From contig NZ_CP048836.1 in NCBI RefSeq assembly GCF_010983895.1, forward strand, positions 1,426,001 through 1,490,000: a stretch of DNA of 64,000 nucleotides. The letters run 5' to 3'. A program made the position numbers and the translations under genes. This stretch comes from Nitrogeniibacter mangrovi (lineage in GTDB: Bacteria; Pseudomonadota; Gammaproteobacteria; Burkholderiales; Rhodocyclaceae). The notes under the pieces are model-generated. The model had not been told where the DNA came from. It searched no databases and saw only the letters and a list, made by a program, of their open reading frames with translations. Shown in pieces: positions 2,169-27,604 of the stretch (positions within the stretch are counted from its first letter, which is position 1; the number at the start of each line of letters is the position of its first letter).

Positions 2169-3284
2169 TCAGTCACCGACAACGGACTCGTCTGCGCGAT
2201 CACCCGACACGCCGCCGAGAGTGACTTCGGCGTGCTGCCACTCTTCGACGATCTGCTCGATCAATGCCGCTGCCGGTAGTTCGCGCACTAAGGGGGCACC
2301 CTGTCCGGCCCAGTGTGCAGCGTAGCTGTCATCGCCACGTTTCGCCGCAGCCTGGTGGAGGGCCTTGCCGGCATGGTAGGTGATCGGATAATCGGGTGGC
2401 GCTGGGGCATCGTCTCTTCCCAGTGTGTGCAAGCGGTTGACGATGCCGCGTGCAGGCCGGCCGGAGATGGCTGAGGTGATGGCCGTGTGGTGCGCACTCG
2501 CGCTCTTCAGCGCATTGCGGTAAGCAAGGCTCGCCGAGGATTCGGGACACAGGATGAACGCCGTGCCCATCTGCGCAGCCGATGCGCCAAGCCGCAGGGC
2601 GGCAGCGACACCGTCGCCGTCCATGATCCCGCCGGCGGCGACGATCGGTAGTCGCGTCTGTCGCGACAGCAGCCGCACTAGGGAGAAGGTGCCGATAAGT
2701 TTGTCCTCCGCGGGGTCGAAAATCCCGCGGTGCCCGCCGGCCTCGGCGCCCTGCGCTACGAGAACGTCGATGCCGGCATGCTCGACCGCGTCCGCCTCCG
2801 CAAGATCGGTCGCGCAGGCCATGGTGACGATGCCCGCCTGTCGCAGGGCGGCGATCCAGTGAGGGTCAGGGAGGCCGAAGTGGAAACTGACCACCGCCGG
2901 TTTCTCGTCGAGCAGCATCGCCAGCAGGGCGTCGTTGCCGAGCGCCGTCGGGTAGATTTCTCGCAACGATTTCGGTGGTTCCGCGCCGAACTTGCGGAAC
3001 TCCGCCGCCAGATGCGTCAGCCAAGCCGTCTCGCGGGCGTGATCGGCCGTTGCGGGGCGATGGCAGAACAAGTTGACGTTGAACGGCTTGTCGGTGAGCT
3101 GGCGGGTCTCGCGGATCTGCCTGGCCGCTTGGTCCACCGTCGCGGCACCAAGACCCAGCGAACCGAGGCCACCGGCCTCGGACACTTCGGCCACCAGTCC
3201 AGGCGTGGACACGCCAGCCATCGGCGCCTGAATGATCGGGTAGCGGATCCCCAATTTCGCGACCAGGGTCTCGAACGAAGACAT
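2169..3284 (-). CDS. Class I nitronate monooxygenase
   Basis: The 371-residue TIM-barrel flavoprotein oxidises alkyl nitronates; the best known physiological substrate of class I enzymes is propionate 3-nitronate, which yields malonate semialdehyde plus nitrite/nitrate. Family motifs are all present: [10 protein letters not shown] (19-28), [10 protein letters not shown] (66-75), SFHFG (133-137, with the likely catalytic His135), [11 protein letters not shown] (177-187, FMN phosphate), MGTAF (239-243) and [10 protein letters not shown] (274-283). ATG 3284 is preceded by AAGGAG. The gene follows the MOSC gene by 70 bp on the same strand, and both diverge from a LysR gene across a strong palindrome. 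The class I call is firm; the true substrate is inferred from context. Confidence 0.85.
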
Positions 3285-3354
3285 GGATTCTCCTTTCACG
3301 GGCTCATGCAGATTGTGAAGGGTACGCATGCGCATGCCGGCGTCCCGGGCGTGA

Positions 3355-4032
3355 TCAATCGGCGGCGGCGACGTGCTTTCGCAACCACTTCACCCGTTCG
3401 ATCAAACGTCGCTTCCAGTCTTCGGCAAGGCCGGGCACGGCAGCCAGCTCCAAAAGATCGTCGAGTGCCGGTCGGTGCGACGACTGCACCTGCCAGAACT
3501 GATCGATGGAGAAGCGCTCGGTCTGCCGGTCCAGGAGCCTCATCTCATCACCCTGCTGGATCAGTCCCGGCTCGATCACCCGGTAGTACCAACCGGTGAT
3601 CCGCGTCTGCGCTACATGCATCGACATACGCTCGATGCCGAAGCGATGACTGATTTTCCAGCATGGGCTGCGCGGCTGGGACACTTGCAGGACGGTACTG
3701 CCGGCTCGGAAGATGTCGCCGATGTGCACGTTCCGCTCGGTGAGGTGCAACGCCGACAGATTCTCTCCCAGACTCCCCGGCACCAGCGCGTTTGAGCATT
3801 GCGGAAACGCTTGTGCCAGGTGTGCATAGTTGTCGGCCGCATACTGGTGAACAGCCTTTTCCGGTCCACCGTGCACCCGCGGGTCGCCATGCTCGTCGCC
3901 CACGATGCCGTGGGCCTCGACACGCGCCGGTCCCGCGATGCGTCGCTTGAAGATACCGCTGCGCTGCCCCTCCGGCGCCAGGACGCCCATCCCGCCGGCG
4001 AAGACGAGATCAATCGTCGACTTGAGATTCAT
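3355..4032 (-). CDS. MOSC-domain protein, YiiM-like
   Basis: A 225-residue protein made of a MOSC beta-barrel with the family signatures [20 protein letters not shown] (45-64), GSLGENL (86-92) and the conserved Cys124 in RSPCWKI, followed by a C-terminal three-alpha segment as in YiiM. YiiM-type proteins carry molybdenum cofactor and reduce N-hydroxylated compounds. A link to nitrogen-oxide side products of the neighbouring nitronate monooxygenase is plausible but unproven. It is the first gene of a two-gene minus-strand unit under the palindrome at 4062-4096. Confidence 0.85.
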
Positions 4033-4061
4033 TTCAAACCATCTCGATGTCCAAGTTCAGG

Positions 4062-4119
4062 TCACTTTACGGGTCACCATCAATCCCGTAAAGTGATTCG
4101 ATGTGATGGAACGCATCAC
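4062..4119. promoter_or_regulatory. Divergent LysR-type operator region
   Basis: The 110-bp gap between the MOSC gene and the LysR gene holds a perfect 12-bp inverted repeat, TCACTTTACGGG (4062-4073) and CCCGTAAAGTGA (4085-4096), with an 11-base spacer, and a second dyad GTGATG-N5-CATCAC (4103-4119). Two dyads between a LysR gene and its divergent target match the usual recognition-plus-activation site layout. Confidence 0.75.
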
Positions 4120-4142
4120 TGACAGTAATGGGAGGTGGAGTC

Positions 4143-5030
4143 ATGGAGATGCGCCAGCTGAAGATATTTTGTGCCGTGGCCGAGCAAGGCAGCTTCACCG
4201 CCGCCGCCAACACGGTGCATACGGTCCAGTCCAACGTCACCATGCGCGTGAAGGAACTGGAGGCCGAACTGAGCCAGCAACTGTTCATCCGGCAAAAGAG
4301 TGGTGTCGTGCTCACCTCGGCAGGCCAGACGTTTCTCGGCTATGCGCGGCGTATCCTTCAACTCACCGACGAGAGTCGCAGTGCGTTGCAGGACACCGGG
4401 ACGCCGACGGGGCTGCTGCGCCTCGGTTCGATGGAGACGACGGCCGCGATTCGGCTGCCGCAGGTTCTGACCAAGTATCGCGAGAAATATCCCGAGGTTC
4501 AGCTGTCCTTGCTCACGGGCACCACCGCCGAACTGATCAAGGCCGTTGAATCGCATCGCATCGACGGTGCTTTCGTGGGGGGGTTCCATCAGAACCTGGC
4601 GCTGGAGCAGGAAGAAGTCTTCCATGAAGAACTTGTCCTCGTGAGCAGTAGCGACTTCGATTCACTCGAGGTGCTCATCGAAAACATGCCACAACAGACG
4701 GTGTTGGTGTTTCGGACAGGCTGCTTCTATCGCTCGACGCTGGAGAACTGGTTCTACCAAGTGGGCCTGGTTCCCAATCAGATCATGGAGCTCGGTACCC
4801 TTGACGGCATCATCTCGTGCGTTGCCGCCGGGATGGGCGTCACCCTGCTGCCCAAGGCGATCGCCGAGAACTACGCGATGCGGCATCCCATCCGTCACCA
4901 TGCGCTCCCGTCGGAGTTTTCCAAGGTCGCCACCGTGTTCATCCGCAGGAGCGACACCCTGGCCACCTCGGCGTTGAAGGTATTCATCGACCTGACGCAA
5001 GAGCAGTACCGGCACGCTCCGACCGCGTGA
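4143..5030 (+). CDS. LysR-type regulator, probable activator of the nitronate monooxygenase-MOSC unit
   Basis: A 295-residue LysR protein with the N-terminal winged helix-turn-helix (FTAAANTVHTVQSNVTMRVK) and a periplasmic-binding-like effector domain. ATG 4143 is chosen for the GGAGG seven bases upstream. It resembles the island's second LysR (15010-15897): both have HTVQSNVT, an LG-S/T-METTAA stretch and a TTGTT motif, so they belong to one subfamily and may sense related effectors. Its divergent position across a perfect palindrome implies control of the monooxygenase unit. Confidence 0.85.
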   Translation: MEMRQLKIFCAVAEQGSFTAAANTVHTVQSNVTMRVKELEAELSQQLFIRQKSGVVLTSAGQTFLGYARRILQLTDESRSALQDTGTPTGLLRLGSMETTAAIRLPQVLTKYREKYPEVQLSLLTGTTAELIKAVESHRIDGAFVGGFHQNLALEQEEVFHEELVLVSSSDFDSLEVLIENMPQQTVLVFRTGCFYRSTLENWFYQVGLVPNQIMELGTLDGIISCVAAGMGVTLLPKAIAENYAMRHPIRHHALPSEFSKVATVFIRRSDTLATSALKVFIDLTQEQYRHAPTA

Positions 5031-5139: not shown

Positions 5140-6518
5140 TCATCGCAGGCGTGCTCCGTCGGTGTTTGTGGCGTTGTGCGGGCGAGGGCTGGCCGGTGAG
5201 TGCTCATGGGATCGTGGGCGGGCAAAGCGGTGCATGATCCAGCGATTGAGTAGCGCGCAGGCCACCAGCAGCCCGCTGGTGACGAAGAAGACGGAGGGCA
5301 GTCCCGCATGGGCGCCGATCTGGCCGCCCAGCAAGGGCCCGACCACTTGGCCGGTGAACTTGGCGGACTGCAGGTAGCCGAGGGTTTTGCCTGAATTGCG
5401 CTCGCTCACCAGCTCGCGAACCAGCTTGGCGACGGACGGCAGCAGTCCGGCGATGGTCATTCCCATCAGGCCGCGCAGGAGGGCCAGTTGCCACCAGCGG
5501 GTGACATAGGCCTGGGGCAGCATGACCAGGCCGGTTGCCAGCAGGCAGCCGATGATCACGTTCCAGCTGCCCACCCGATCGGCCAACGCCCCCAGGCGTG
5601 GTGCAGTCAGCATGCTGCCGAACGCCGAAGCCGCCATGACGAACCCCGCCATCGGGGCAAGCTTTTCAGGCGGAACACCCAGCTGGGCAATGTAGACGGT
5701 GATGATCGGCTCAATGGACATATTGGCCAGCAAGACCATCATGGCCGTGATCAGGAGCGCCGCGAGCAGGGGGCGATTGGAGGCCCCGCCAGCGGCATGG
5801 CGACCTGCGTCTTCCTTCGGATGCTGGGCATCCACGCCCCTGTCGAAATCCTCCTGCACCAGGAAGATGGTGGCCATTGCGGCCACTGCGATCATCGCCC
5901 CGCCGACGAAGAAGGTGCCGCGGATGCCGACCCATCCCGGCAGGAATCCACCCACCAGTGGACCGATCAGGTTGCCGGCCAGGGCGCCGGTGGACAGCAC
6001 CCCGAGCGCCCAGCCCGCGCGCTCCGGCGGCGCCTGGGTGCCGACCATGACAATCGAGGCCGAGGCGAACCCCCCACCAGGCCGGCGGCCAGACGCAACA
6101 GCACCAGTTCGATGACGCTGTGCGCCAGACCAATGAGGGACATGACTACGGCCATGCCGATGGCCGCTCGTACCAACATCGGTTTGCGCCCGTAGCGGTC
6201 TGCCAGACGCCCCCATACCGGCGCGGTGATGGCGGTACCGAAGAAGGTCGCCCCAAAGGCCAGCGCCGACCACTGCACCACCCCCGCCTCGGTCGTCTCA
6301 CCCATCTGTGCCACGTAGAGCGGCAGGAACGGTAGCAGCATGGTGAGGCTCACGAGCGTCGTGAACGATCCGAACACGCAGACGGCCAGATTCCGCCGCC
6401 AGTAGGGGCGATTTCGTTCGGCGTAGCTGGCACCGTGGGGCTCCGTAGGCAACTGCGGCCGACTGCCGTCGTTGCGGCGCGCTCCGCCTGTGGTGATTGG
6501 GTGAATGTCAGCAGCCAT
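5140..6518 (-). pseudogene. MFS transporter with a frameshift
   Basis: Two overlapping frames together give a roughly 459-residue major facilitator protein. Residues up to LRLAAGLVGG (6518 to about 6070) hold the first transmembrane helices and the loop signature GRLADRYGRKPM; the downstream frame continues with GFASASIVMVGTQAPP to the stop at 5140. The break lies at a run of six G (minus strand, 6069-6074); a seventh G would restore the frame. It may be a real pseudogene, a phase-variable tract or a sequencing error. The closest type is a 12-TM multidrug/sugar-efflux-like permease. Confidence 0.75.
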
Positions 6519-6554: not shown

Positions 6555-7781
6555 TCAACCGTCTTGCGTTGCCTCGTGCCGCGCGGCCGAGGTACCGATG
6601 AAGTCGGTCGCCAGGGCCAGTACGATGGCGGCGCTCCCGATGGTGAAGAGCAGGCCGTAGTCCCCCCCGCTGGCCGAGAATACGAAGGTCAGGCCGTAGG
6701 CGGCCAAGGCCTGGCACAGGGCGAAACCGATGGTGGCCGTGCTCCAGGCCGGAATCTGCTGCGCAGGGTGATGGGCCAGGAGTTCATGCAAACGCCCCAG
6801 CACCAGCGGAACGGTGCCGGTGACGATAGCCCCCACCACGACGCTTGAGACCATCAGCCACACCATGTTGAGGCCGCAGGCCGGAACCGCGACGGCCACT
6901 GCTTCCAGCACGAACGAAGTGCGCAGGGCGCGGCCGAAGCCCACCGTGTCCGCCAGCATGCCGGACAGGACGGGGCCCACCGTGGCGCCGATGCCGAACA
7001 GCACCCAGTGCTCCGCCCCCACCTGCAACCCCTTGCCAAGGCCGTGGGCCACGAAGTCCACCAGGAAGATCATGTGAGGTACCCAGCCGACGGCGTTGAG
7101 GGCGTACTCCACATAGAGCGCCCGCAGGAGACGATTTCCGGATGCGCGGCGCGGGTGCGGGTGGGGCTTCGGGACGGCTGCCTGGCTCGGCCACCCGTTC
7201 CAAGCGATCGCGGTGAGCGCCAGCGAGATGACGCCCATGCCGAGCCAGGTGTCGCGCAAGCCTTGTTCGAGTAGCAGCGGCACCAGCGTGCCGGAAGCGA
7301 CGATGCCGACGCCGACACCCATGAAGATCACGCCACTGGCGAGCCCGCGACGTGCCGGACGCACCAAGGGAAGCACCGCCGGTGCGGCCAGCACCATCAG
7401 TACGCCACCGGCCATTCCAGACAGCAGACGCCAGACGAAGAACCAGATGAACGACGCGGGCTGGGCGCATGCGAAGAAGGCGACCGTGGCCAGAATCATC
7501 ATGCCCCGCAGGCAGATCGCCGACCGATCCCCCGCGGCAATCGGCCGTCCGGCCAGGGCGCCGATCAGGTATCCGGCCAGATTGGCGGCGCCCAGGTAGG
7601 CCGCCTGGGAGGGATCGAACCAATGGGCGTCAACAATCGCCGGCAGCAAGGGCGTGTACGCAAATCGCGCGAGGCCGATGCCCACCAGACTTGCGCAGAA
7701 GCCTGCGAGCGTCCCTCTGACCGCGTTCGCAGAGCGCGTTCCTGAATTCTTTTGGCCGCCGGATGCGACAAGCTTGTCCAC
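6555..7781 (-). CDS. YbfB/YjiJ-family MFS transporter
   Basis: A 408-residue, 12-helix permease. The start (GTLAGFCASLVGIGLARFAYTPLLPAI) is the signature of the YbfB/YjiJ family of major facilitator proteins, whose substrates are mostly unknown. It follows in the same direction as the frameshifted MFS gene, 36 bp ahead of it, so the two may have formed one unit. Confidence 0.8.
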   Translation of the reverse strand: MDKLVASGGQKNSGTRSANAVRGTLAGFCASLVGIGLARFAYTPLLPAIVDAHWFDPSQAAYLGAANLAGYLIGALAGRPIAAGDRSAICLRGMMILATVAFFACAQPASFIWFFVWRLLSGMAGGVLMVLAAPAVLPLVRPARRGLASGVIFMGVGVGIVASGTLVPLLLEQGLRDTWLGMGVISLALTAIAWNGWPSQAAVPKPHPHPRRASGNRLLRALYVEYALNAVGWVPHMIFLVDFVAHGLGKGLQVGAEHWVLFGIGATVGPVLSGMLADTVGFGRALRTSFVLEAVAVAVPACGLNMVWLMVSSVVVGAIVTGTVPLVLGRLHELLAHHPAQQIPAWSTATIGFALCQALAAYGLTFVFSASGGDYGLLFTIGSAAIVLALATDFIGTSAARHEATQDG

Positions 7782-8051: not shown

Positions 8052-8534
8052 ATGAATTCGGAATCCAAGTGGCCCGTGGTCGTCGCCGAGTTGAACAGGT
8101 CTGCAGACCTCAGAGATTTCATCGCCGGACTGGCGGTGGATGACATACGCGCCCGTTTCAATGCGTCGTTGCTACCCGAGGTGCTGCCCGGCATGCTTGC
8201 GCCGGCACCGTCCAGTGGCTTCATCAACCTTGGTGCGTGGAAGCAAGGCCGGCTCGTCGGGACGGCCGTTCTCGCCCATGAAGAAGACGACCGCTACGAA
8301 CTGGCGGTACTGGTTCGCTCGAACATGAAGCGCCGCGGGATCGGAACGGCGCTGACCTTAGAGGCGTTGCGCAATGCGGCCCGCCTGGATGCGGGCAGGG
8401 TCGTGGCCCACGTTCGAGCCAGCAACACGGCGGCACTGGCGCTGCTCAGCGCTACGGGTTTCCGTCGGATCTCGGCGCTGGGATTCGAAATGATGTTCGG
8501 TCGCTGGCCGGCGGCTACAGCCAATGGCTGCTGA
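8052..8534 (+). CDS. GNAT-family N-acetyltransferase
   Basis: A 160-residue protein with the GNAT fold. The acetyl-CoA pyrophosphate-binding motif A is RSNMKRRGIGTAL (residues about 90-102), followed by the motif B segment VRASNTAALALLSATGFRR. The substrate cannot be told. It converges on the GcvA-type LysR gene, with 7 bp between stops. Confidence 0.75.
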   Translation: MNSESKWPVVVAELNRSADLRDFIAGLAVDDIRARFNASLLPEVLPGMLAPAPSSGFINLGAWKQGRLVGTAVLAHEEDDRYELAVLVRSNMKRRGIGTALTLEALRNAARLDAGRVVAHVRASNTAALALLSATGFRRISALGFEMMFGRWPAATANGC

Positions 8535-8541: not shown

Positions 8542-9432
8542 TCACCGATCCGGTGGGGAGACATCGAGCAGCCAGTCGGTAAACAGGCGAAGCTCGCGGC
8601 GCGGTGCTTCGTCGGCCGGTTGAATCAACCAGAAACCGGTGGTGGACCTGATCGGAGGCTGAGCAGCCTCCACGAGTCGCCCGGCCGCCAAGTCGTCATC
8701 AATGAGTGGGCGGCGGCCGATCGCGACGCCCAGGCCTTCCTGCGCCGCGGCCACAGCCATCTGAACCGTATCGAAGTTCATTCCCGTGTCCAGATCGATA
8801 CCGCTGGCGCCGCTCCATTGCGCCCAAGAGTCCCAGTCCTCCGCGATCGATGTCACGTGCAACAAGGGAACCGACGCCAGATCCAGTTCCCCCCCTTGCT
8901 GATGCTCGGCCTTGAAAGCCGGGGAACACACCGGAACGAGCTCTTCCAAAAACAGGCAGGTGGACTTGAGATTCGGCCAGGGCGCCTGGCTCATCCGGAT
9001 CGCGAGGTCCACATTGTCACCGGGGAAATCGACATTCCTGTGGATCGTATCCACCGATACCAGGATGTCCGGATACCGCATTCGGAAGTCCGTGAGGCGA
9101 GGCAAGAGCCAACGGATCGCAAAGGTCGGGGTGGTGCTGATGGAGACCCGCGGCTCGCCATGTCTTCTTGGAAGTCGCCCGGTGCCAACGGCAATCGAAG
9201 TCAAGGCATCGGACACGAACGGCAGATATTCCCGCCCCTCACGAGTCAGGGCCACCCCATTTCCCAGGCGTTCGAACAGCGCAATGCCCAGCCATTGCTC
9301 CAGCGAAGCAATACCGTGGCTGACCGCGCTCGAAGTCAGATGCAACTCGTGGGCAGCGAGTTTGAAGCTTTGATGGCGCCCTGCGGACTCGAACAACCGC
9401 AGCGCCGCCAAAGGAGGAAGTCGAAGTGCCAT
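8542..9432 (-). CDS. GcvA-type LysR regulator
   Basis: A 296-residue LysR regulator. MALRLPPLAALRLFESAGRH and SSAVSHGIASLEQWLG are typical of the GcvA/AmpR subgroup. It is divergent from the short-chain dehydrogenase gene at 9710, and a 39-bp near-perfect palindrome (9508-9546) lies between them, so it probably regulates itself and that gene. Confidence 0.82.
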   Translation of the reverse strand: MALRLPPLAALRLFESAGRHQSFKLAAHELHLTSSAVSHGIASLEQWLGIALFERLGNGVALTREGREYLPFVSDALTSIAVGTGRLPRRHGEPRVSISTTPTFAIRWLLPRLTDFRMRYPDILVSVDTIHRNVDFPGDNVDLAIRMSQAPWPNLKSTCLFLEELVPVCSPAFKAEHQQGGELDLASVPLLHVTSIAEDWDSWAQWSGASGIDLDTGMNFDTVQMAVAAAQEGLGVAIGRRPLIDDDLAAGRLVEAAQPPIRSTTGFWLIQPADEAPRRELRLFTDWLLDVSPPDR

Positions 9433-9546: not shown

Positions 9547-9709
9547 AGGTCATTGACGATCCCACTGATGAGCTCCGGTAAAAACTGCGTTGCCCGGCGG
9601 CGCCTTTATCCCCCCTTCGCGCGCTTCTATGGTCGACCTCACGCAGGGCACCGCCAGGACTTGTAGTGCCCGACTCGGATGAATGACGCAAGCTATGGAG
9701 TATCGGAAA

Positions 9710-10447
9710 ATGGAAACAAAGACGCGGACCGTCGTAATCACCGGCGCATCGAGCGGCATCGGTTTTGCACTGGCGCGGGCCTATCTGCAGCGGGGTTACA
9801 ACGTCGTCGGAAACGCCAGGCGACCGGAGCGCTTGCAGGCTGCCGAACAGACGCTGCGCAGCGTCGGCAATTTCGTGACCGTCGATGGCGACATTGGTCT
9901 CGAGGAAACGTCGCGCAGGCTCTTCGAGCGCGCGATCGCGTGTTTCGGCCAGGTCGACATTCTCGTCAACAACGCGGGGATCTTCATCGCGAAGCCGGTC
10001 GCGGAATACACGTCCGGCGACATCGACCGTCTGATCGACACCAATCTCCGAGGATTCCTCTACCCAACCCGGGCCGCGGTCGCTCACATGAGCGGAAATG
10101 GCGGCGGCCACATCATCAACATCACTGCGGCGCTCGGTATGCAGCCGACGGTGAAGGTGCCTGCCGTTCTCCCGGTGCTGACCAAAGGTGGCCTCAATCA
10201 GGCAACCCGCGCCCTCGCGGTCGAGCTGGCCCGGTACGGCATCAAGGTCAACGCCGTCGCGCCTGGCGTGATCGACACCCCCTTGCACAGCCCGGAGAAG
10301 CACGCCTTCCTCGCCACCCTGAACCCCTCGGGGCGCGTGGGCCAAACCCAGGACATCGTCGACGCGGTCCTCTATCTCACCGATTCCGATTTCACGACTG
10401 GTGCCGTCCTTCCCGTCGATGGAGGTGCGGCGGCCGGATGCTCGTGA
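9710..10447 (+). CDS. Short-chain dehydrogenase/reductase-like protein lacking the catalytic Tyr
   Basis: The 245-residue Rossmann protein keeps the cofactor motif TGASSGIG (11-18), the structural NNAG and the PG-VIDTP segment of classical SDRs, and ends with the usual VDGG. The active site is odd: the expected Ser is in NITAALG and the Tyr-x-x-x-Lys motif reads PVLTK, so Tyr is Pro while Lys remains. It may have lost redox activity or act in another way. ATG 9710 has GGAG nine bases upstream; ATGs at 9683 and 9695 are alternatives without a good site. Confidence 0.75.
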   Translation: METKTRTVVITGASSGIGFALARAYLQRGYNVVGNARRPERLQAAEQTLRSVGNFVTVDGDIGLEETSRRLFERAIACFGQVDILVNNAGIFIAKPVAEYTSGDIDRLIDTNLRGFLYPTRAAVAHMSGNGGGHIINITAALGMQPTVKVPAVLPVLTKGGLNQATRALAVELARYGIKVNAVAPGVIDTPLHSPEKHAFLATLNPSGRVGQTQDIVDAVLYLTDSDFTTGAVLPVDGGAAAGCS

Positions 10448-18824: not shown

Positions 18825-19862
18825 TCACGAACGGCCTTCCTCCCGGGCATCACGATGCTTCGCGTGAAGGATGCCATCTCGCGCCGAAGGGTCCGTGGTG
18901 CAACGTTCCACGCGACTGACGTCCGCCTGGATGGGTAAGCCGCGGGCGAGTTCGGCGACGCGTTCGGCTGCCGGAACGATGTCGAGGACTTTTCCGGAGC
19001 CCTGGCCGGCGTACAGCGACAGCTTCTGGGCCATTTTCGGCTTGTCGATCGTGCGTGCGCCTCCGCCCACAAAGCGCAGTACATTCCACTTGTCGTGATT
19101 GGGAATCACCCGGTGGGGAGTCCCGTACGGCCATCCGAAGGAGTAGCCGGTTCGATACTCGGTATCGTCGGTCGTTGCTTCGACGATCTTCTGCTTGTAG
19201 AGCGGGTGCGCATTCGATTCGTCGCACGCCACGAAAGCGGTGCCGACCAGCACACCCGAGGCGCCCAGTTCCATTGCCACCGCCACATCGGCTCGATTCG
19301 TGATGCCACCCGCAGCCAGGACGGGGCGCCCCTGCGCGATGTCGAGAATCGATGGTAGCAAGGACATGAGCCCGATCGTGCCCGGATTGAGGTGGCCGCC
19401 GCATTCGCTGCCTTGTGCCACGATGATGTCCGCACCGTGAGACAGAGCCTCCTTGGCGAGCTTGGTCGTACCGACCTGCACCATGACCACCAGGCCCGCG
19501 TGTTTCGCTCGCGGAATCATGTCGGCGGCGTAATCCTCAGCGTAAAACAGCGACAGCAGCCGGGGCCTTTCCTCCAGGATGACCTGGAATTGTGCTTCGA
19601 AGACATCCGGACCGCCGAATTTTGGCACCACGTTCACGCCGAACGGTTTGTCCGTCAGGCGCTTGGTTTCCTGAATCCACTTGCGCAAGGCCAGTGGAGG
19701 AAGACGCAGTCCGCCGACGATGCCCATGCCGCCTGCATTGGTTGCGGCGGCGACAAGCTCGGGGCCGGAGATCGCAGCCATCCCCGCGGCAAAGATCGGG
19801 TATTCGATGCCGCAGAGCCGCGTGACGACGTTGCCGGGGTAGTTCACGTTCACGAGTTTCAT
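18825..19862 (-). CDS. Nitronate monooxygenase / 2-nitropropane dioxygenase-like flavoprotein
   Basis: A 345-residue TIM-barrel FMN protein of the NMO/FabK family: YPIFAAGMAAISGPELVAA, GADIIVAQGSECGGH, PVLAAGGITNRADVA and GVLVGTAF. It lacks the class I signatures (no SFHFG, no [10 protein letters not shown]), so nitronate oxidation is less certain than for the gene at 2169; it could reduce an enoyl thioester or oxidise another substrate. It sits in a tight operon: cytochrome b561 (4-bp class gap) before it and HPP directly after it. Confidence 0.75.
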   Translation of the reverse strand: MKLVNVNYPGNVVTRLCGIEYPIFAAGMAAISGPELVAAATNAGGMGIVGGLRLPPLALRKWIQETKRLTDKPFGVNVVPKFGGPDVFEAQFQVILEERPRLLSLFYAEDYAADMIPRAKHAGLVVMVQVGTTKLAKEALSHGADIIVAQGSECGGHLNPGTIGLMSLLPSILDIAQGRPVLAAGGITNRADVAVAMELGASGVLVGTAFVACDESNAHPLYKQKIVEATTDDTEYRTGYSFGWPYGTPHRVIPNHDKWNVLRFVGGGARTIDKPKMAQKLSLYAGQGSGKVLDIVPAAERVAELARGLPIQADVSRVERCTTDPSARDGILHAKHRDAREEGRS

Positions 19863-19865
19863 GAT

Positions 19866-20420
19866 TTAAAGCTCCACATGTTTTCCGAACATCCGCTTCA
19901 GCACATCGTTCTTGAGCACGAAGTGGCTCTTGAGTGCTCCGAAGATATGGAGCCCAAGCCCCGCGAGAAATGCCGTCGCACCGATGTTGAAAAGGATACC
20001 GACGACGTCCTTCACGGGCTGGCTGGGTCCGATGAGGGCAGGAATCGAGAACCCGCCAGGCAGCTCGATGGCTACGCCGGCTGCCGATCGATAGAGCCAT
20101 ACGGCAATCGGCAGCAGCACCATGGCCAGGGCCATGGCCACCGCCACCGAGCGGCTGACGATGACCTCGATGGGGTGGGGTGTCCCGACCGGCAGCGGTT
20201 GGTAGGACGTGACGCGTGCCCAGAGGCGGTAGATCGAGACGAGGAACAAGAGGGTGCCGAGCAGGTTCTGCAGTTGCTCGAGATCCACTCGTCGCGCCTC
20301 GTCCCCAATCTGGGGAATGGCGATGCCCAATCCGATGATCGACAACAGCAGCGCTGCCACGATCCAGTGCATCACGAGCGTAATGGGCGAGTAACCCAGG
20401 CCGTTGTCTCGTAGTTGCAT
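19866..20420 (-). CDS. Cytochrome b561 family membrane protein
   Basis: A 184-residue four-helix membrane protein with the build of prokaryotic b561: SPITLVMHWIVAALLLS carries the first haem histidine (His18), and GLHIFGALKSHFVLKND in the last helix carries another. Such proteins pass electrons between the quinone pool and a partner enzyme or superoxide. It starts the segment b561, NMO-like, HPP, with 3 bp to the next start. Confidence 0.82.
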   Translation of the reverse strand: MQLRDNGLGYSPITLVMHWIVAALLLSIIGLGIAIPQIGDEARRVDLEQLQNLLGTLLFLVSIYRLWARVTSYQPLPVGTPHPIEVIVSRSVAVAMALAMVLLPIAVWLYRSAAGVAIELPGGFSIPALIGPSQPVKDVVGILFNIGATAFLAGLGLHIFGALKSHFVLKNDVLKRMFGKHVEL

Positions 20421-20522: not shown

Positions 20523-22196
20523 CTAGTGGCGGACTGCCCCGGCAGCGCCCAGCCCTGTCTGGGCGGCGACGAACTGGTCGTCGAACGCTTCGCGCTCGCG
20601 TCCGGCCCGGGAACTGCGGTCGGTAATCGATCCGAGCCAGGTGAAGAGGAAGGCCACATTCACCGAGACGATCGCCGGGTAGTCGTACGGGAAGATTGCG
20701 TGGTCGTTGCCCAGTACCTTGACCCAGACGGCGGGCGAGAGGATGACCAGCGCGACCGAGCTGATGAGTCCCGCCGTGCCGCCAATCAGTGCTCCGCGGG
20801 TCGTCAAGCCTTTCCAGAACATGGAAAGTGCGAGGATCGGGAAATTCACCGAGGCAGCGATGCCGAAGGTCAGGCCGATCAGGAAGGCGATATTCTGGTC
20901 CTTGAACAGAATGCCCAGGATCACCGCCACCACGCCGATGCACACCGGCGCGATCCTCGAAACCCGCCTCTGCTCCGCTTCGGAAGCGCGGTTCTTCTTG
21001 ATGACGCGGGTGTAGAGGTCGTGCGCGATGGCCGAGGTGCCCGCGATCGCGAGCCCGGATACCACCGCCAGAATCGTGGCGAAGGCCACCGCGGACAGGA
21101 AGCCGAGCATGAGATCCCCGCCGACTGCCTTGGCCAGGTGCATGACCGGCATGTTGTTGCCACCGATGAGCTTCCCGGCAAGATCGCCTCCTACGAAGAA
21201 GGCGGGATCGCGACCGACGATGACGATCGCGGCCATTCCCAGCACCACCACCAGCAGGAAAAAGAACCCGATGGCACCGGTCGCCACGAACACGGACTTT
21301 CGCGCTTCCTTCGCGTTGGCGACGGTAAAAAAGCGCATGAGAATGTGGGGCAGGCCGGCGGTCCCGAAGACCAGCGCAATCGAAAGCGAGATGATCGCGA
21401 TCGGATCGGCGGTCAACTTGCCGGGCAACAGAATGGCGGCGCCGTCTTTGTGGGCGGCAACCGCTTGGTCGAACAGGGAATCGAGCGAGAAGCCGAACTT
21501 GCTTATCGCCAGGAAACCCAGCACCGTGCCGCCAAGAAGCAAGAGGCACGCCTTGGTGATCTGGACCCAGGTGGTCGCCACCATGCCGCCGAACGTGACG
21601 TAGATCACCATCAATACCCCGACGATGATCACCGCATAATTGTAGGGCAGGCCGAACAGCAGCTGGATCAGCTGGCCGGCCCCGACCATCTGGGTGATGA
21701 GGTAAAAGCAGACCACCGTGAGCGACGAAAATGCCATCAACGTCCGTATCGGGCCTTCGTCGAGCCGGTTCGCGACGATGTCGGAGATGGTGATGCGCCC
21801 CAGGTTTCTGATTCGCTCCGCGAACAGGAACAGCAGCACCGGCCAGGCCACGAAGAAGCTGATCGCGTAGATCATGCCGTCATAGCCCCTGAAGAAGATC
21901 ATGCTGGTGAGCCCCAGCAGCGTCCCCGCGGACATGTAGTCACCGGCCAAGGCGATACCGTTCTGGAAGCCGGTGATGCCGCCGCCGGCGGTGTAGAAGT
22001 CGTTGACCGATTTCGTCCTTGAAGCCGACCAGTAGGTGATGGCCAGTGTCGCTCCCACGAACACCAAGAACAGAATGATCGCCGTCGTATTGATTGGTTG
22101 CCGTTCGACTGCCTGCAACGCACCCGGCGCCGCAAACGCAGTCATCGTCGGTCCCATCAGGGCCATGAGCATCAGTAGGTTGCGTGTCGATTTCAT
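20523..22196 (-). CDS. Sodium:solute symporter, ActP-like (copy 2)
   Basis: A 557-residue permease paralogous to the one at 13141: TYWSASRTKSVNDFYTAGGG, GDYMSAGTLLGLTSM and [17 protein letters not shown] cleavable-looking N-terminus (LLMLMALMGPTMTAFAAPG) precedes the first helix. The ATG at 22196 overlaps the stop of the DUF485 gene (ATGA). The b561-NMO-HPP genes follow after 103 bp on the same strand, so the transporter probably feeds that set. Confidence 0.86.
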   Translation of the reverse strand: MKSTRNLLMLMALMGPTMTAFAAPGALQAVERQPINTTAIILFLVFVGATLAITYWSASRTKSVNDFYTAGGGITGFQNGIALAGDYMSAGTLLGLTSMIFFRGYDGMIYAISFFVAWPVLLFLFAERIRNLGRITISDIVANRLDEGPIRTLMAFSSLTVVCFYLITQMVGAGQLIQLLFGLPYNYAVIIVGVLMVIYVTFGGMVATTWVQITKACLLLLGGTVLGFLAISKFGFSLDSLFDQAVAAHKDGAAILLPGKLTADPIAIISLSIALVFGTAGLPHILMRFFTVANAKEARKSVFVATGAIGFFFLLVVVLGMAAIVIVGRDPAFFVGGDLAGKLIGGNNMPVMHLAKAVGGDLMLGFLSAVAFATILAVVSGLAIAGTSAIAHDLYTRVIKKNRASEAEQRRVSRIAPVCIGVVAVILGILFKDQNIAFLIGLTFGIAASVNFPILALSMFWKGLTTRGALIGGTAGLISSVALVILSPAVWVKVLGNDHAIFPYDYPAIVSVNVAFLFTWLGSITDRSSRAGREREAFDDQFVAAQTGLGAAGAVRH

Positions 22197-22501
22197 TTGC
22201 GCTCTCCGGCCAAGATCTTCACGGTGAGCTCGTCGAATTCGCCGTTTGCCCGTTGCGCATACACGCCCGTCAGCAGCCATGAACCGACGATCAAGGCAGC
22301 GCCGACCGGCCAGCCAACATTTATGACGCCACTGGAAACCTTCGCTGCGAGCAGCTGCGGTGCGAAAGCGGCAACGAAGATAAATGCGTAATACGGAATC
22401 AGGATCGCCGCTGTCAGCCAGGCGACGAATCTCCTCCGGCGCGTTACGAGTACATGAAATAGGGGATTGCTCCGAATCCCGGAAAGTGCGGTCGTCTCCA
22501 T
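22193..22501 (-). CDS. DUF485 membrane protein (YjcH-like), copy 2
   Basis: A 102-residue protein with two helices (WLTAAILIPYYAFIFVAAF, WPVGAALIVGSWLLTGVYA) of the YjcH/DUF485 family. ATG 22501 is preferred because GGAG lies eight bases upstream; ATG 22525 has none. The stop overlaps the symporter start. Confidence 0.8.
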   Translation of the reverse strand: METTALSGIRSNPLFHVLVTRRRRFVAWLTAAILIPYYAFIFVAAFAPQLLAAKVSSGVINVGWPVGAALIVGSWLLTGVYAQRANGEFDELTVKILAGERK

Positions 22502-22979
22502 CTGCTTGTCTCCATCCTTTGACATTTTTTGTGGCATCACCTGCGAGTGCTCGTGACATCGAATTGGCCGCGATTTCTTCGCCATTGAACGATAGGCAGG
22601 ACTTTGCATCAGCACAAATGATGCGTTGTGATGGTATCTATCTCAATTTGTGAATTTTCTTCGGAAGGCGGACGGAGACCGTATGACCCGCCCGTTGAGC
22701 GTCGGCAGCCCACGGGGCCAGCGGCCATCTCCGACCCGGGCAGGCGTGTTGCACCGTATGCGACCAGAACTCCAACCCGCGTGCTGCGTTCATGCGGGAA
22801 TCAGAAAATCATTTTTTATGATTGGTGTTATCTTCAATGATCATTTTACGAAATGCGTTGAGTCTCGTACTGTTTTCGGACGCTGGGTAGCTCCGATGTC
22901 GGTCTCGTCGTGGGCGTCTGGCGTGACATTCGTTGAAAACCAACCGTTACCCCGCACCCGACAGACGAACGAGGCACCG
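22502..22979. promoter_or_regulatory. Divergent promoter region between the transporter operon and sodB
   Basis: These 478 bp contain no convincing gene. AT-rich tracts at about 22620-22660 and 22800-22855 probably hold the two promoters. A CACAAAT and an ATTTGTG (about 22612-22652) form a widely spaced inverted repeat. Confidence 0.35.
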
Positions 22980-23564
22980 ATGGACCACAGACTTCCCCCG
23001 CTTCCCTACGCAAAGAATGCGCTGGCTCCCCACATGTCAGCGGAAACCTTCGACTACCACTACGACAAGCATCACCAGGCCTACGTCACGAATCTGAATG
23101 CCCAGATCAAGGACACGCCTTTCGAAAACCTGGCGCTCGAAGAAATCGTCAGGCAGGCGCCCGCTGGTGGCATCTACAACAATGCCGCGCAAGCCTGGAA
23201 CCACACCTTCTTCTGGAATTGCATGGCGCCCGCCGGGGGTGCTGCGCCGACCGGACCGTTGGCCGACGCGATCAACGCCAAATGGGGAAGCCTCGAGGCC
23301 TTCAAGAACGCGTTCCGTGCTGCGGCCGTGAGCAACTTCGGATCGGGCTGGACCTGGCTGGTCAAGAAGGCCGACGGCACGGTGGATGTCGTCAACACCG
23401 GTGCGGCCGGCAATCCGCTGACCGGCGGCGATACGCCCTTGTTGTGTATCGACGTCTGGGAGCACGCCTATTACATCGACTATCGCAATGCCCGCCCGGC
23501 CTTCGTCGACGCCTTTCTCGACAAGCTCGTGAACTGGGCCTTTGCCCAGGCCAACTTTGCCTGA
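22980..23564 (+). CDS. sodB: Iron superoxide dismutase
   Basis: A 194-residue Fe/Mn-type dismutase. Metal ligands are His27, His75, Asp158 and His162 (AWNHTFFWN, DVWEHAYY), and FGSGWTWLV with the AAQAWNHTFFWN context favours the iron form. It removes superoxide in the cytoplasm. GAGG precedes ATG 22980. It lies 69 bp before mmsA in the same direction. Flavin oxidation of nitronates can leak superoxide, which would explain a dedicated copy here. Confidence 0.92.
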   Translation: MDHRLPPLPYAKNALAPHMSAETFDYHYDKHHQAYVTNLNAQIKDTPFENLALEEIVRQAPAGGIYNNAAQAWNHTFFWNCMAPAGGAAPTGPLADAINAKWGSLEAFKNAFRAAAVSNFGSGWTWLVKKADGTVDVVNTGAAGNPLTGGDTPLLCIDVWEHAYYIDYRNARPAFVDAFLDKLVNWAFAQANFA

Positions 23565-23633: not shown

Positions 23634-25151
23634 ATGACCACCGAACCCGCAAACATCGACCACTACATTCACGGCCGCGTGAGGCCGGGAGCCTCGGGCC
23701 GCGCACAGCGCGTCACCAATCCGGCCACGGGCGTCGTCACCGGTCAGGTGGCGCTCGCCTCCGCGACCGAGGTCGATGCCGCCGTGCAGTCGGCCGCTGC
23801 CGCGTTCCCTGCCTGGTCCAATCTTTCGCCACTGCGTCGTGCGCGCGTCATGTTCAAGTTCCTCGAGCTGCTCAACCGGCATCGCGACGAACTTGCGCAC
23901 CTGATCACCGCCGAGCACGGCAAGGTATTCACGGATGCGCAGGGTGAAGTGACGCGCGGCATCGAGGTCGTGGAATTCGCGTGTGGGATCCCGCAGCTGC
24001 TCAAGGGCGACTACACCGAGCAGGTCTCCACCGGTATCGACAACTGGACGATGCGTCAGCCGCTGGGTGTGGTGGCCGGCGTCACGCCGTTCAACTTTCC
24101 GGTGATGGTGCCCATGTGGATGTTCCCGGTGGCGATCGCCTGCGGTAACACCTTCGTGCTCAAACCCAGCCCGATCGATCCCAGCCCTTCGTTGCGCATC
24201 GCCGAACTGTTCAAAGAGGCGGGCCTGCCCGATGGCGTGTTCAATGTCGTGCAGGGCGACAAGGAGGCGGTCGACGCCTTGCTCGAACACCCGGATGTGA
24301 CCGCCGTCAGCTTCGTCGGCTCGACGCCGATCGCCAACTACATCTACGAGACCGGCGCCCACCACGGCAAGCGCGTGCAGGCCCTGGGCGGAGCGAAGAA
24401 CCACATGGTGGTGATGCCCGATGCCGACATCGAGCGCACCGTCGATGCGCTGATCGGCGCGGCCTACGGTTCGGCCGGTGAGCGCTGCATGGCGATCTCG
24501 GTGGCCGTGCTGGTGGGCGACGTTGCCGACACGCTCGTGCCGCGTCTGGTCGAGCGCACCCAGGCGCTGAAGGTGCTCGATGGCGAGAACCTCGATGCGG
24601 AGATGGGGCCGATCGTCACCCGCGCGGCCCACGAACGCATCACCGGCTACATCGAGCAGGGCGTTCAGGAAGGCGCGACCCTGCTGGTCGACGGGCGCGG
24701 TTTCGACGCCAACCAGGCCGGCCCGAATTGCGGCGATGGGTATTGGATGGGCGGCACGCTGTTCGACAACGTCACGCCCGAGATGCGTATCTACCAGGAA
24801 GAGATCTTCGGACCGGTGCTGGCCTGCGTGCGCGTGAACGACTTCGCCGAGGCGGTGGATCTGGTCAATGCGCACGAGTTTGGCAACGGCACTGCCTGCT
24901 ACACCAGTGACGGCAACGTGGCACGCGAATTCGCGCGACGCATCCAGGTCGGCATGGTCGGCATCAATGTGCCGATTCCGGTGCCCATGGCCTGGCACGG
25001 CTTCGGCGGCTGGAAGCGCTCGCTGTTCGGCGACATGCATGCCTACGGCGAAGAAGGCGTGCGTTTCTACACCAAGCAGAAGTCGATCATGCAGCGCTGG
25101 CCCCAGAGCATCTCCAAGGGCGCCGAATTCGCCATGCCCACTTCGCAGTAA
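23634..25151 (+). CDS. mmsA: (Methyl)malonate semialdehyde dehydrogenase, CoA-acylating
   Basis: The 505-residue aldehyde dehydrogenase turns malonate semialdehyde, CoA and NAD into acetyl-CoA, CO2 and NADH (propionyl-CoA from the methyl form). Catalytic Cys285 lies in SAGERCM, the cofactor segment is [22 protein letters not shown], and [14 protein letters not shown] and the MmsA-type [16 protein letters not shown] (Arg108, expected to bind the carboxylate) set it apart from ordinary aldehyde dehydrogenases. ATG 23634 has GGAG upstream. With the dehalogenase and decarboxylase in the same island it gives an oxidative exit for malonate semialdehyde. Confidence 0.9.
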
Positions 25152-25268
25152 GCGTTACCGCGCAGCTCGCCGACGCGATCTCGCAGAGTCGACCACCCGG
25201 CTTACGGGCGGCGACTCTGCGACCCGGGCGCCGGGTCAATTGCATACAGGCAACAGAGAGGACACCCC

Positions 25269-25739
25269 ATGAAAGCAATTCAAGAAGCCATCACCGGCAA
25301 GGAAGACGCTGGAGAGTCGTCGTCGCCATTTCAGGCGCTCGTCCAGTTCTACTGTGCATTCAATTCCGGTGACCTGGCGATGATGTCGGAGAACTGGGCC
25401 CAGACCGACGACATCGCTATGGACAATCCGCTGGGCGGCATCAAGCGCGGCTGGGCCGAAATTCAGCCCGTATATGACCGCCTGTTCAACGGACCGGCGG
25501 AAGTCTACGTGGAATATTTCGACTACACCCTCCACGAGACGGCCGACATGTTCTATGCCGTCGGAAGGGAGCGCGGTTTTTTCCGCCTCGGAGGCGAAGA
25601 CGTGACACTCGCAATTCGTACGAGCCGGATTTTCCAAAAAATCGATGGCCGCTGGAAACAGGTTCATCACCACGGCTCGATCGATGACCCACAGTTATTG
25701 AGCCGCTATCAATCTGCTGTGCTCGGCACGAGGTCATGA
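25269..25739 (+). CDS. NTF2/SnoaL-like fold protein
   Basis: A 156-residue protein of the NTF2-like superfamily: a helical start (FQALVQFYCAFNSGDLAMMS) then an open beta-cone with DNPLGGIKRGWAEIQPVYDRLF and the closing GRWKQVHHHGSIDDP. Such proteins are often small isomerases, hydrolases or binding proteins. The function here is unknown. Its stop (25737-25739) overlaps a possible upstream start of the flavohaemoglobin gene. Confidence 0.75.
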   Translation: MKAIQEAITGKEDAGESSSPFQALVQFYCAFNSGDLAMMSENWAQTDDIAMDNPLGGIKRGWAEIQPVYDRLFNGPAEVYVEYFDYTLHETADMFYAVGRERGFFRLGGEDVTLAIRTSRIFQKIDGRWKQVHHHGSIDDPQLLSRYQSAVLGTRS

Positions 25740-25774
25740 ATGTTCCGCACACCCGCACTGACAAGGAAAGCCCG

Positions 25775-26962
25775 ATGCTGACCGAGCGCCAACGCGACAT
25801 CATCAAGGCAACCGTCCCGCTGCTCGAAACCGGCGGAGAGACGCTCACCACCCACTTCTACACGGTGATGCTCAACGAGTATCCGCAGGTCCGGCCGATG
25901 TTCAATCAGGCGCACCAGGCCAGCGGCACACAGCAGCGGGCACTGGCCAACGGCGTGCTGATGTACGCCCGCAACATCGACCGGCTCGAAGCTCTCGGCC
26001 CGTTGGCGGCGCAGATCGTCAACAAGCACGTGGCGCTGCAGGTGCAGCCGGAGCACTACCCCATCGTCGGCACCTGCCTGATACGCGCCATCGATGAGGT
26101 GCTTGGCCCGGAACTGGCCACGGACGAAGTGATCGACGCCTGGGGCGCCGCCTACCAACAGCTCGCGGACATCCTGATCGGTGCCGAGGACGCGGTGTAC
26201 GACAGCCTTGCCTCTGCTCCCGGCGGCTGGCGCGGCAGCCGGGAATTTCGCGTCGTCCGCAAAGTGCCCGAGAGCGCCGAGATCACGTCCTTCTACCTGG
26301 AGCCGGTCGACGGCGGGCCCGTGCTCACATACGAGCCCGGCCAGTACATCGGCCTTCGACTCGTCATCGACGGTGACGAAATCCGCCGCAACTACTCGCT
26401 GTCCTCGGCTCCCAACGGCCGCGGCTACCGCATCAGTGTCAAGCGAGAGCCCGCCGGTGTGGCCTCCGGTCATTTGCACGATCACATACATGAGGGCAGT
26501 ACGCTCGAACTTTTCCCGCCAGCAGGCGAATTCACGCTTGGCGATGGCGACGGACCACTGGTCTTCATCAGCGGCGGTGTCGGCATCACGCCTACGCTGG
26601 CGATGGCCGAGGCCGCACTGAACGACGGCGACCGGAGCATCGTCTTCATCCACTACGCTCGTGACGCACAGGCGCATGCCTTCGGCGACGTCATCGACGC
26701 GTGGGCCGCCCGCTATTCGCGGTTCCGCCGGTTCGTCGTCTACGAACATGATCAGGAGGGCGCGTCGCGTCAGCCGGATGCGGTCGGCCGCCCCACGTTC
26801 GAGCAGTTGAAGCAGTGGCTTCCCGCCGATGGCGATTTCGACGCCTACTTCCTCGGACCCAAACCCTTCATGGCCGCCATCAAACGGTACTTGAACGAGC
26901 TGGGGCTGCCCGCCGAAAGAGGGCGTTACGAATTCTTCGGTCCAGCGGAAGCGCTGAATTGA
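25775..26962 (+). CDS. hmp: Flavohaemoglobin / nitric oxide dioxygenase
   Basis: A 395-residue protein: globin domain (1-138) with the proximal His in NKHVALQVQPEHYPIVG, then an FAD domain (RNYSLSSAPNG) and an NAD domain (FISGGVGITPTLAMAE, FLGPKPFM). It oxidises NO to nitrate with NADH and O2. ATG 25775 gives the classical N-terminus and has AAGGAAAG upstream; ATG 25736 would add 13 residues and overlap the previous stop. In this island it is a likely defence against NO from nitrite. Confidence 0.92.
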   Translation: MLTERQRDIIKATVPLLETGGETLTTHFYTVMLNEYPQVRPMFNQAHQASGTQQRALANGVLMYARNIDRLEALGPLAAQIVNKHVALQVQPEHYPIVGTCLIRAIDEVLGPELATDEVIDAWGAAYQQLADILIGAEDAVYDSLASAPGGWRGSREFRVVRKVPESAEITSFYLEPVDGGPVLTYEPGQYIGLRLVIDGDEIRRNYSLSSAPNGRGYRISVKREPAGVASGHLHDHIHEGSTLELFPPAGEFTLGDGDGPLVFISGGVGITPTLAMAEAALNDGDRSIVFIHYARDAQAHAFGDVIDAWAARYSRFRRFVVYEHDQEGASRQPDAVGRPTFEQLKQWLPADGDFDAYFLGPKPFMAAIKRYLNELGLPAERGRYEFFGPAEALN

Positions 26963-27211
26963 ACGACAAATGCCGAGCAACCAGACGCGGTGGACGACCG
27001 ATGACTCCGTGATCGACGATGCGGCGTGGGTGAAACGTCGTGACGTTGACGCTCATGATGCGGGCATGAGGGTGCGGGTCGGTCAGAGCGTCGCGACCGA
27101 AGGCGCACCGATGGCTGCGGCCAACAATGATTGACGGCGGTAGCGCCGTCGCAGGCCGCTTTTCGAAAAAATCTGAATTGGTTATCCAATGTGGCGCTAA
27201 GGAGAATCTCA

Positions 27212-27604
27212 ATGCCATTACTCAAGTTCGATATTATCCAGGGGCGTAGCGACGCCCAGGTTCGCACCCTCCTGAATGCGGCCCATGAGGCGATGGTGCG
27301 GGCGTTTGAAGTCCCACCGAGCGATCGCTATCAATGCGTCACCCAACACCGTGCAGGTGAATTGGTGCTGGAGGACACCGGCCTGGGCTACCCCCGCTCG
27401 ACCGATGTCGTCTTACTGACCGTGTTCTCACGGAAGCGCACTCAGGAGCAGAAGGTCGCGTTCTATCGCCTGCTGGCAGACAGGCTTCAAGCGGATTGCG
27501 GCCTGTCGCCGGACGACCTGATCGTCTCTGTAATCGAGAATGCCGATGCGGATTGGTCGTTCGGCCGTGGCCGCGCACAGTTCTTGACCGGAGAGCTCCG
27601 ATAG
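27212..27604 (+). CDS. Malonate semialdehyde decarboxylase (tautomerase superfamily)
   Basis: The 130-residue tautomerase-fold protein matches malonate semialdehyde decarboxylase in every residue reported to matter there. Counted after Met removal these are Pro1, Asp37, Arg73, Arg75, Trp114 and Phe116, with the motif DADWSFGRGRAQFLTGEL near the end. It would turn malonate semialdehyde into acetaldehyde and CO2, the step after 3-chloroacrylate dehalogenation in 1,3-dichloropropene degraders. AAGGAG precedes ATG 27212. It stands alone, 250 bp after hmp. Confidence 0.9.
   Translation: MPLLKFDIIQGRSDAQVRTLLNAAHEAMVRAFEVPPSDRYQCVTQHRAGELVLEDTGLGYPRSTDVVLLTVFSRKRTQEQKVAFYRLLADRLQADCGLSPDDLIVSVIENADADWSFGRGRAQFLTGELR

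Follow-up and report, generated by a model that had tools for sequence, protein, structure and literature searches.

A 64,000-nucleotide (nt) stretch of Nitrogeniibacter mangrovi DNA (contig NZ_CP048836.1, positions 1,426,001 to 1,490,000; here called the window) carries ~26 genes that we tentatively read as an acquired island for the catabolism of nitro-carboxylic acids, of which 3-nitropropionate (3-NPA) is the likeliest, with malonate semialdehyde as the common product. The island combines genes for a class I nitronate monooxygenase (NMO), for a two-subunit dehalogenase of the CaaD type preceded by an MmgE/PrpD-family protein, and for two predicted consumers of malonate semialdehyde, and the clustering of its genes in other genomes exceeds chance. 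3-NPA is a legume and fungal toxin, and CaaD is the textbook dehalogenase for a man-made fumigant; to our knowledge, the natural role of CaaD is unsettled.

In the scheme we favor, the class I NMO would oxidize the nitronate of 3-NPA to malonate semialdehyde, releasing nitrite or related nitrogen oxides, flavohaemoglobin (Hmp) and superoxide dismutase (SOD) would clear nitric oxide (NO) and superoxide, and a MOSC-domain protein may reduce N-oxygenated by-products. The semialdehyde would be consumed by MmsA, yielding acetyl-CoA, and by malonate semialdehyde decarboxylase (MSAD), yielding acetaldehyde. MmgE/PrpD and CaaD would form a second, hydrolytic entry: a trans-3-substituted acrylate, made or prepared by MmgE, would be hydrated at C3 by CaaD with loss of the substituent, most likely a nitro group, to give malonate semialdehyde. 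We infer all substrates, which way the MmgE reaction runs, that nitro is the group expelled, and what MOSC, SOD, and Hmp do in this island, as well as the intermediate shared by the CaaD and NMO branches. The evidence consists of directly observed protein families, catalytic residues, and gene order, together with recurrence and linkage elsewhere.

The MmgE gene is separated from the CaaD alpha gene by 25 nt, which in turn is separated from the CaaD beta gene by 37 nt, and a purine-rich stretch precedes each CaaD start:

10825..12240, + strand, MmgE/PrpD-family protein (PF03972, 215.6 bits; PF19305, 120.8 bits; the open reading frame opens at TTG 10699, and the likely start is ATG 10825)
12266..12496, + strand, CaaD alpha (70% identity to Pseudomonas pavonaceae 1s0y_A, E 7.5e-31; Arg8, Arg11, and Glu52 kept)
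12534..12731, + strand, CaaD beta (match to 1s0y_B, E 1.1e-20; Pro1 kept)

For comparison, we assembled 23 loci (numbered L; genomes are numbered G), consisting of 20 genome loci from one genome-contig scan (CaaD alpha 68 to 91% identical) and three plasmid loci read with 15-kb flanks (L006, L007, and L009) from the ten PLSDB records with CaaD at >80%; loci from Rhodococcus (56%) and Sphingomonas (46%) were left out. The residues that we take to be catalytic in CaaD, namely, alpha Arg8, Arg11, and Glu52 and beta Pro1, are present in 25 of 25 alpha chains (a count that includes P. pavonaceae) and 24 of 24 beta chains from the window and these loci, and one PDB chain among the alpha matches has Gln at position 52. 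Judged by its sequence, the window pair is a true member of the CaaD family. All 24 alpha chains besides that of P. pavonaceae, which has Pro, carry an N-terminal Ala. The CaaD of P. pavonaceae shares 78% identity with the enzyme of L028 and 66 to 73% with the others, and these values place the pesticide enzyme within the range of the MmgE-linked CaaD family. Two distant relatives that were excluded from the residue counts, from Sphingomonas (L075) and Rhodococcus (L008), have Asp at alpha position 52; on the Sphingomonas panacis plasmid of L075, the tandem CaaD-like tautomerase pair (positions 10001 to 10497) is 46 to 47% identical, and an NMO-family gene lies 6 kb off.

The MmgE/PrpD-family protein reaches none of the PrpD NCBIfam equivalog cut-offs (116.2, 81.6, and 64.6 bits against 950, 575, and 458 bits, respectively), and its best PDB match is weak (E 5.5e-17), the nearest solved proteins being 2-methylcitrate dehydratase, IDS epimerase, and cis-aconitate decarboxylase. 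These relatives use di- and tricarboxylates. An intact MmgE gene lies directly 5' of CaaD in 21 of the 23 loci; in L027 the gene is broken across two frames, and L029 retains no more than a remnant. MmgE at 74% identity or more was found in exactly ten PLSDB records, the same ten that carry CaaD at >80%, and the next MmgE relative is 43% identical. Because the upstream MmgE recurs and the PLSDB records for the two proteins coincide, MmgE and CaaD form one unit. Adjoining the unit with the MmgE remnant (L029, positions 11112 to 12650) is a gene for a Cas12f1-like TNB domain (TnpB-type) protein. On a Methylosinus trichosporium OB3b plasmid (L074), a 40% MmgE relative adjoins a phosphosulfolactate synthase gene, and annotated sdhB, sdhC, and sdhD genes are located some kilobases away.

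Two enzymes predicted to consume malonate semialdehyde are encoded toward the right end of the island:

23634..25151, + strand, MmsA, a CoA-acylating (methyl)malonate-semialdehyde dehydrogenase (TIGR01722, 695.7 bits; cut-off, 448.5)
27212..27604, + strand, MSAD (match to 2aag, E 5.3e-58; 69.5% identity over 128 residues), with Pro1, Asp37, Arg73, and Arg75, which we take to be the key MSAD residues

Of 19 CaaD genomes, 6 have an MSAD with 50% or more identity to the window MSAD, and four of these six copies lie within ~10 kb of CaaD (L010, L019, L024, and L028); those of G162 and G165 are outside the flanks that were read. By flank, MSAD accompanies CaaD in 5 of the 23 loci (L007 in addition to the four just named) and MmsA in 14. 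This MSAD linkage is in our view the best comparative evidence that CaaD would make malonate semialdehyde in these loci; counting against that proposal, 13 of the 19 CaaD genomes lack a close MSAD copy at the same 50% threshold. The host genome contains a second MSAD-like stretch (L002, near 111676) that is 86% identical over its last 91 residues, with its N-terminal part unmatched.

The genes that point to a nitro compound are spread over the island:

2169..3335, - strand, NMO1, a class I NMO (best PDB match 4q4k, E 5.7e-117; 58.2% identity over 342 positions; three motif stretches kept)
3355..4032, - strand, MOSC-domain protein, 19 nt from NMO1 (PF03473, 112.5 bits; nearest NCBIfam model NF008577, 6-hydroxyaminopurine reductase, 153.3 bits, below its cut-off of 294)
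18360..18824, - strand, open reading frame adjoining NMO2, without any Pfam match
18825..19862, - strand, NMO2, a second NMO-family flavoprotein that is not class I (PF03060, 182.4 bits)
19866..20420, - strand, cytochrome b561-like protein, 3 nt from NMO2 and kept with it elsewhere (NF008566, 23.2 bits, below cut-off)
22980..23564, + strand, Fe/Mn SOD (PF02777 and PF00081)
25775..26962, + strand, Hmp, a flavohaemoglobin of the NO dioxygenase family (NF009805, 547 bits; cut-off, 432)

We take 4q4k to be the class I enzyme PA4202, and the motif assignment is likewise our assumption. In a tree, NMO1 groups with 4q4k (node support, 0.65; wider clade, 0.97), whereas NMO2 lacks these class I features, with 34.4% identity and with a 10-residue motif stretch and SFHFG missing. 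As a set, NMO1-MOSC, NMO2, Hmp, and SOD fit a nitro compound that would release nitrite, NO, and superoxide, and we count it in favor of 3-NPA that a single island holds neighboring class I NMO and MOSC genes together with MmsA, Hmp, and SOD. The 3-NPA scheme of strain Nvir likewise assigns NO to Hmp and 3-oxopropanoate to a (methyl)malonate-semialdehyde dehydrogenase (PMC9552603). The sequence-only reading of this DNA had named a CaaD-like dehalogenase with both subunits, an MSAD with all key residues, an MmsA-type CoA-acylating dehydrogenase, and a class I NMO, and each of these assignments is borne out by the matches and residues given above; MmgE/PrpD, NMO2, MOSC, cytochrome b561, Hmp, SOD, and two ActP-type symporters are additions to it.

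Across genomes, the common neighbors of CaaD are MmgE/PrpD, LysR regulators, MmsA, NMO, and MOSC, with regulators of the types we call LysR_A and LysR_C flanking CaaD in 19 of the 23 loci. An NMO-family gene lies no more than ~10 kb from CaaD in 10 of the 20 genome loci (L010, L011, L018, L020, L021, L023, L025, L026, L027, and L028), compared to 0.57 expected from NMO match counts and genome sizes, with L017 given an average value. After like architectures were merged by our own grouping, the linkage held in 7 of 13 groups (binomial, 2.5e-7 using the largest single-locus chance). An NMO2 gene ~19 kb from CaaD in the genome of L019 (L037) was left out of this count. The sequence-only reading named a lack of such co-occurrence elsewhere among its refuting conditions; instead, NMO and MSAD are both linked to CaaD far above expectation.

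Three NMO subfamilies are found near CaaD in the tree: class I NMO1 (the window, L011, and L021), NMO2 (the window, L010, L025, L027, and L021 with L035), and a third type (L011, L018, L020, L023, L026, and L028). Only NMO1 retains the class I motifs and groups with 4q4k; relative to NMO1/4q4k, NMO2 is 34% identical and the third type is 31% identical. That three subfamilies are linked to CaaD argues for function, not inheritance alone, as the probable cause. The arrangements can be tight, with the order NMO, MOSC, MmgE, CaaD alpha, CaaD beta in L018, L020, and L021, and the order MmgE, CaaD alpha, CaaD beta, NMO in L028, an alphaproteobacterial metagenome-assembled genome in which MSAD is divergent; NMO is directly 3' of CaaD beta in both L011 and L028.

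The nitro genes also occur as a module of their own. The five genomes of L012 to L016, in which no NMO is linked to CaaD, all have a separate cluster of NMO1, MOSC, SDR, SSS2, cytochrome b561, and NMO2 (L030 to L034), with LysR_A in three of the five stretches; these stretches were chosen for having two nearby NMO matches and are therefore a nonrandom sample. Cupriavidus necator A5-1 (L036, from the genome of L029) has a nitro-module cluster with MmsA and LysR_A and without SDR. In Caballeronia glathei (L021 with L035), the nitro cluster stands beside MmgE-CaaD, together with a YbfB-type MFS transporter, LysR_C, LysR_D, and SDR, so that much of the window's gene set is present in a different order. 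In PLSDB, eight of nine NMO2 records contain CaaD and 8 of 10 CaaD records contain NMO2, a weak count, since all eight records are from Paraburkholderia and the genes are far apart. On Tistrella mobilis plasmid pTM1 (L076), an NMO2-type gene has cytochrome b and LysR neighbors and the record has no CaaD match; the NMO2-cytochrome b pair can hence stand alone.

A possible reason for the presence of CaaD comes from succinate dehydrogenase, which 3-NPA inactivates because the enzyme oxidizes it to 3-nitroacrylate (PMC8064083). trans-3-Nitroacrylate resembles trans-3-chloroacrylate in shape, nitrite would be the group that leaves, and the known CaaD chemistry would then give malonate semialdehyde and nitrite. 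SdhA paralogues lie within ~6 kb of CaaD in two loci. The L028 protein scores 940.5 bits against TIGR01816 in a genome that has two further SdhA pieces at 67 to 74%, and the L007 protein belongs to an sdhD-sdhA copy that is 87 to 94% like the SdhA of relatives and borders another operon. After the sdhD-sdhA copy and the CaaD unit, L007 (positions 19595 to 25370) continues directly with genes for MaoC, an MFS transporter, another MmgE/PrpD protein, acyl-CoA dehydrogenase, and CaiB, of which the MFS gene alone was scanned and the rest were named by eye. In G163 (C. sordidicola, the genome of L024), a contig ends in an SdhA piece (L061) beside the same MaoC and MFS genes, and this strain may share the L007 arrangement. 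No SdhA was present in the other CaaD flanks read, and of the 23 SdhA matches listed across another 19 genomes, the host's among them, none could be tied to CaaD. We regard the SdhA linkage as a hint. It bears on a bolder proposal, which we consider doubtful, namely, that CaaD arose as a hydratase that denitrates 3-nitroacrylate and that the pesticide dehalogenase of P. pavonaceae is a recruited nitroacrylate enzyme. Bacteria meeting 3-NPA would oxidize part of it via succinate dehydrogenase to enzyme-inactivating trans-3-nitroacrylate, and MmgE-CaaD, linked with NMO, MOSC, MSAD, and sometimes a spare SdhA, would destroy or exploit this compound to yield malonate semialdehyde and nitrite.

Several observations weigh against the 3-NPA reading and its nitroacrylate extension. 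NMO by itself already gives malonate semialdehyde, which would leave MmgE-CaaD without an evident need in the use of 3-NPA, and NMO2 and the third NMO type, which lack the class I motifs, may do something else. NMO was absent from the flank in 10 of the 20 genome loci (some flanks being cut by contig ends) and in all three plasmid loci, many of the compared loci come from close relatives (Paraburkholderia), and neither Hmp nor SOD was found in the 39 other loci searched, making both particular to the window island. The SdhA link, seen in 2 of 23 loci, was noticed post hoc, and its rough chance of 0.006 was likewise chosen after the fact; the L007 SdhA may instead belong to the neighboring run from MaoC to CaiB. 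A somewhat less probable alternative than the 3-NPA reading is that two unrelated substrate modules share a downstream intermediate, with NMO serving 3-NPA and MmgE-CaaD serving another natural trans-3-substituted acrylate or alkynoate (e.g., propynoate from decarboxylation), and are co-located because both feed MmsA and MSAD. The loci in which MmgE-CaaD has no linked NMO favor this alternative, as do the di- and tricarboxylate substrates of MmgE/PrpD relatives, but the placement of NMO and MOSC directly 5' of MmgE in three loci and of NMO directly 3' of CaaD beta in two others looks like one operon.

The sequence-only reading had assigned CaaD to 3-chloroacrylate-like halogenated acids, beside a nitropropionate route. 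The complete catalytic residues of CaaD agree with this assignment, as does the nearness of CaaD and MSAD to the enzymes of P. pavonaceae, a 1,3-dichloropropene degrader, but the conserved partners of CaaD are MmgE and NMO rather than dehalogenases. No haloalkane dehalogenase was recognized among the 26 island proteins scanned, the rest of the genome not having been searched for it, and Tautomerase_3 (PF14832), which we take to be the family that holds cis-CaaD, is absent from the host genome, although it occurs somewhere in 10 of 20 genomes searched. A chloro-substrate for CaaD is not supported by these findings, and we consider it unlikely. What stands of the combined module proposed earlier is the presence of a CaaD branch and an NMO branch in one island with malonate-semialdehyde consumers, a combination that recurs elsewhere; the chloroacrylate-like substrate does not. 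A reading in which common catabolic genes came together by chance in a mobile region and serve no joint pathway would accommodate the remains of an integrase and a transposase on the left side, the broken MFS gene, and the abundance of NMO-family genes (8 to 21 matches per genome). It is already disfavored by the NMO linkage, by the proximity of four of the six close MSAD copies to CaaD, and by the recurrence of much of the gene set in C. glathei, and we consider it very improbable.

The remaining island genes encode mainly transporters and regulators:

4128..5030, + strand, LysR_A regulator, divergent from MOSC-NMO1 (relatives adjoin NMO2 elsewhere)
5140..6518, - strand, broken MFS transporter in two frames (overlapping MFS_1 open reading frames 5140-6273 and 5967-6518)
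6555..7781, - strand, YbfB-type MFS transporter (PF06779, 268 bits; 62% relative in the C. glathei island L021)
8052..8534, + strand, GNAT acetyltransferase (PF00583)
8542..9432, - strand, LysR_B regulator (family scan)
9683..10447, + strand, SDR oxidoreductase (PF13561, 160 bits)
12881..13144, + strand, DUF485 protein, 3' of CaaD beta (PF04341, 48.8 bits)
13141..14853, + strand, SSS1, ActP-type cation/monocarboxylate symporter (NF006903, 782.4 bits; cut-off, 750)
15010..15897, + strand, LysR_C regulator (relatives downstream of CaaD elsewhere)
15951..16925, - strand, LysR_D regulator (family scan)
17306..18064, + strand, CMD-family protein with two CMD stretches (PF02627; relatives in L011, L025, and L037)
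20523..22196, - strand, SSS2, ActP-type symporter (NF006903, 830.6 bits; cut-off, 750)
22193..22615, - strand, DUF485 protein, open reading frame limits (PF04341, 100.1 bits)
25269..25739, + strand, SnoaL-like protein (PF13474)

A relative of the broken MFS gene adjoins NMO1 in L043. LysR_A and LysR_C share 71% DNA identity between window positions 4398-4470 and 15265-15337, a likeness hinting at similar inducers for both branches.

The island lies between a tRNA pair with mobile-element remains (571-1973) and an electron-transfer-flavoprotein (etf) gene pair (27940-29684) in a host genome of 4.24 Mb on one contig, and a TacA1-like antitoxin gene (30493-30819, + strand) is located just beyond the etf genes. 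Its left edge is marked by one further feature:

1551..1973, + strand, integrase arm-domain remnant and transposase fragment (PF12167 and PF01527), beside tRNA-Thr/tRNA-Met (571-802)

This remnant is likely an old insertion edge. A direct-repeat search for an attachment-site pair between 400 and 30500 gave nothing convincing among the best 20 of 23 repeat families, and a promoter-like scan of 9400 to 16000 returned 0 matches, compared to 1.8 in shuffles. The island looks foreign to its host: among 150 genomes drawn evenly from the family, one has close CaaD, among 399 drawn evenly from the order, one has NMO2 at E 1e-80 or better, and both times it is the host itself. The other 12 matches in this sampling were tautomerases at 28 to 35%. 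With no further close CaaD or NMO2 in them, these even samples are uninformative on co-occurrence within Burkholderiaceae; a second sampling center (G379), a group of 17 genomes, yielded nothing.

The same CaaD-NMO pairing in other bacteria suggests that CaaD may have a natural part in the breakdown of a plant nitro-toxin. CaaD as a constant MmgE/PrpD partner in NMO- and MSAD-rich loci offers a concrete, cheap route to its natural substrate; if the 3-NPA reading is true, the genetics of 3-NPA breakdown would extend to Paraburkholderia, Caballeronia, and Cupriavidus strains, and the MmgE/PrpD and MOSC members are flagged as having reactions yet to be assigned. Among the papers searched, none contained both "nitronate monooxygenase" and "chloroacryl."

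Among known systems, the 1,3-dichloropropene pathway of P. pavonaceae 170, compared at the protein level, has the same two-subunit CaaD (66% over 137 aligned residues) and the same type of MSAD (69.5% over 128). In contrast, the window CaaD follows MmgE/PrpD and co-resides with NMO, MOSC, and Hmp; the pathway's set of haloalkane dehalogenase and cis-CaaD with CaaD was not seen among the scanned island proteins or, for PF14832, in the genome, and the closest relative of the P. pavonaceae CaaD is the MmgE- and NMO-linked enzyme of L028. The MmgE protein shares a family with PrpD, cis-aconitate decarboxylase, and IDS epimerase but differs in its weak similarity, its distance from the PrpD cut-offs, and its constant CaaD neighbor. 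Pseudomonas sp. Nvir has 3-oxopropanoate, a (methyl)malonate-semialdehyde dehydrogenase, and a flavohaemoprotein in common with the window scheme, whereas a distant monooxygenase (32% identity) is proposed there and the main text does not use the word "tautomerase" (PMC9552603). Propionate-3-nitronate monooxygenases of class I (P. aeruginosa NmoA and Pseudomonas JS189) are matched by NMO1, with its 58% identity to 4q4k, class I motif stretches, and nearby LysR gene; relative to these systems, the window island adds a second NMO-family gene, MOSC, MmgE-CaaD, and MSAD.

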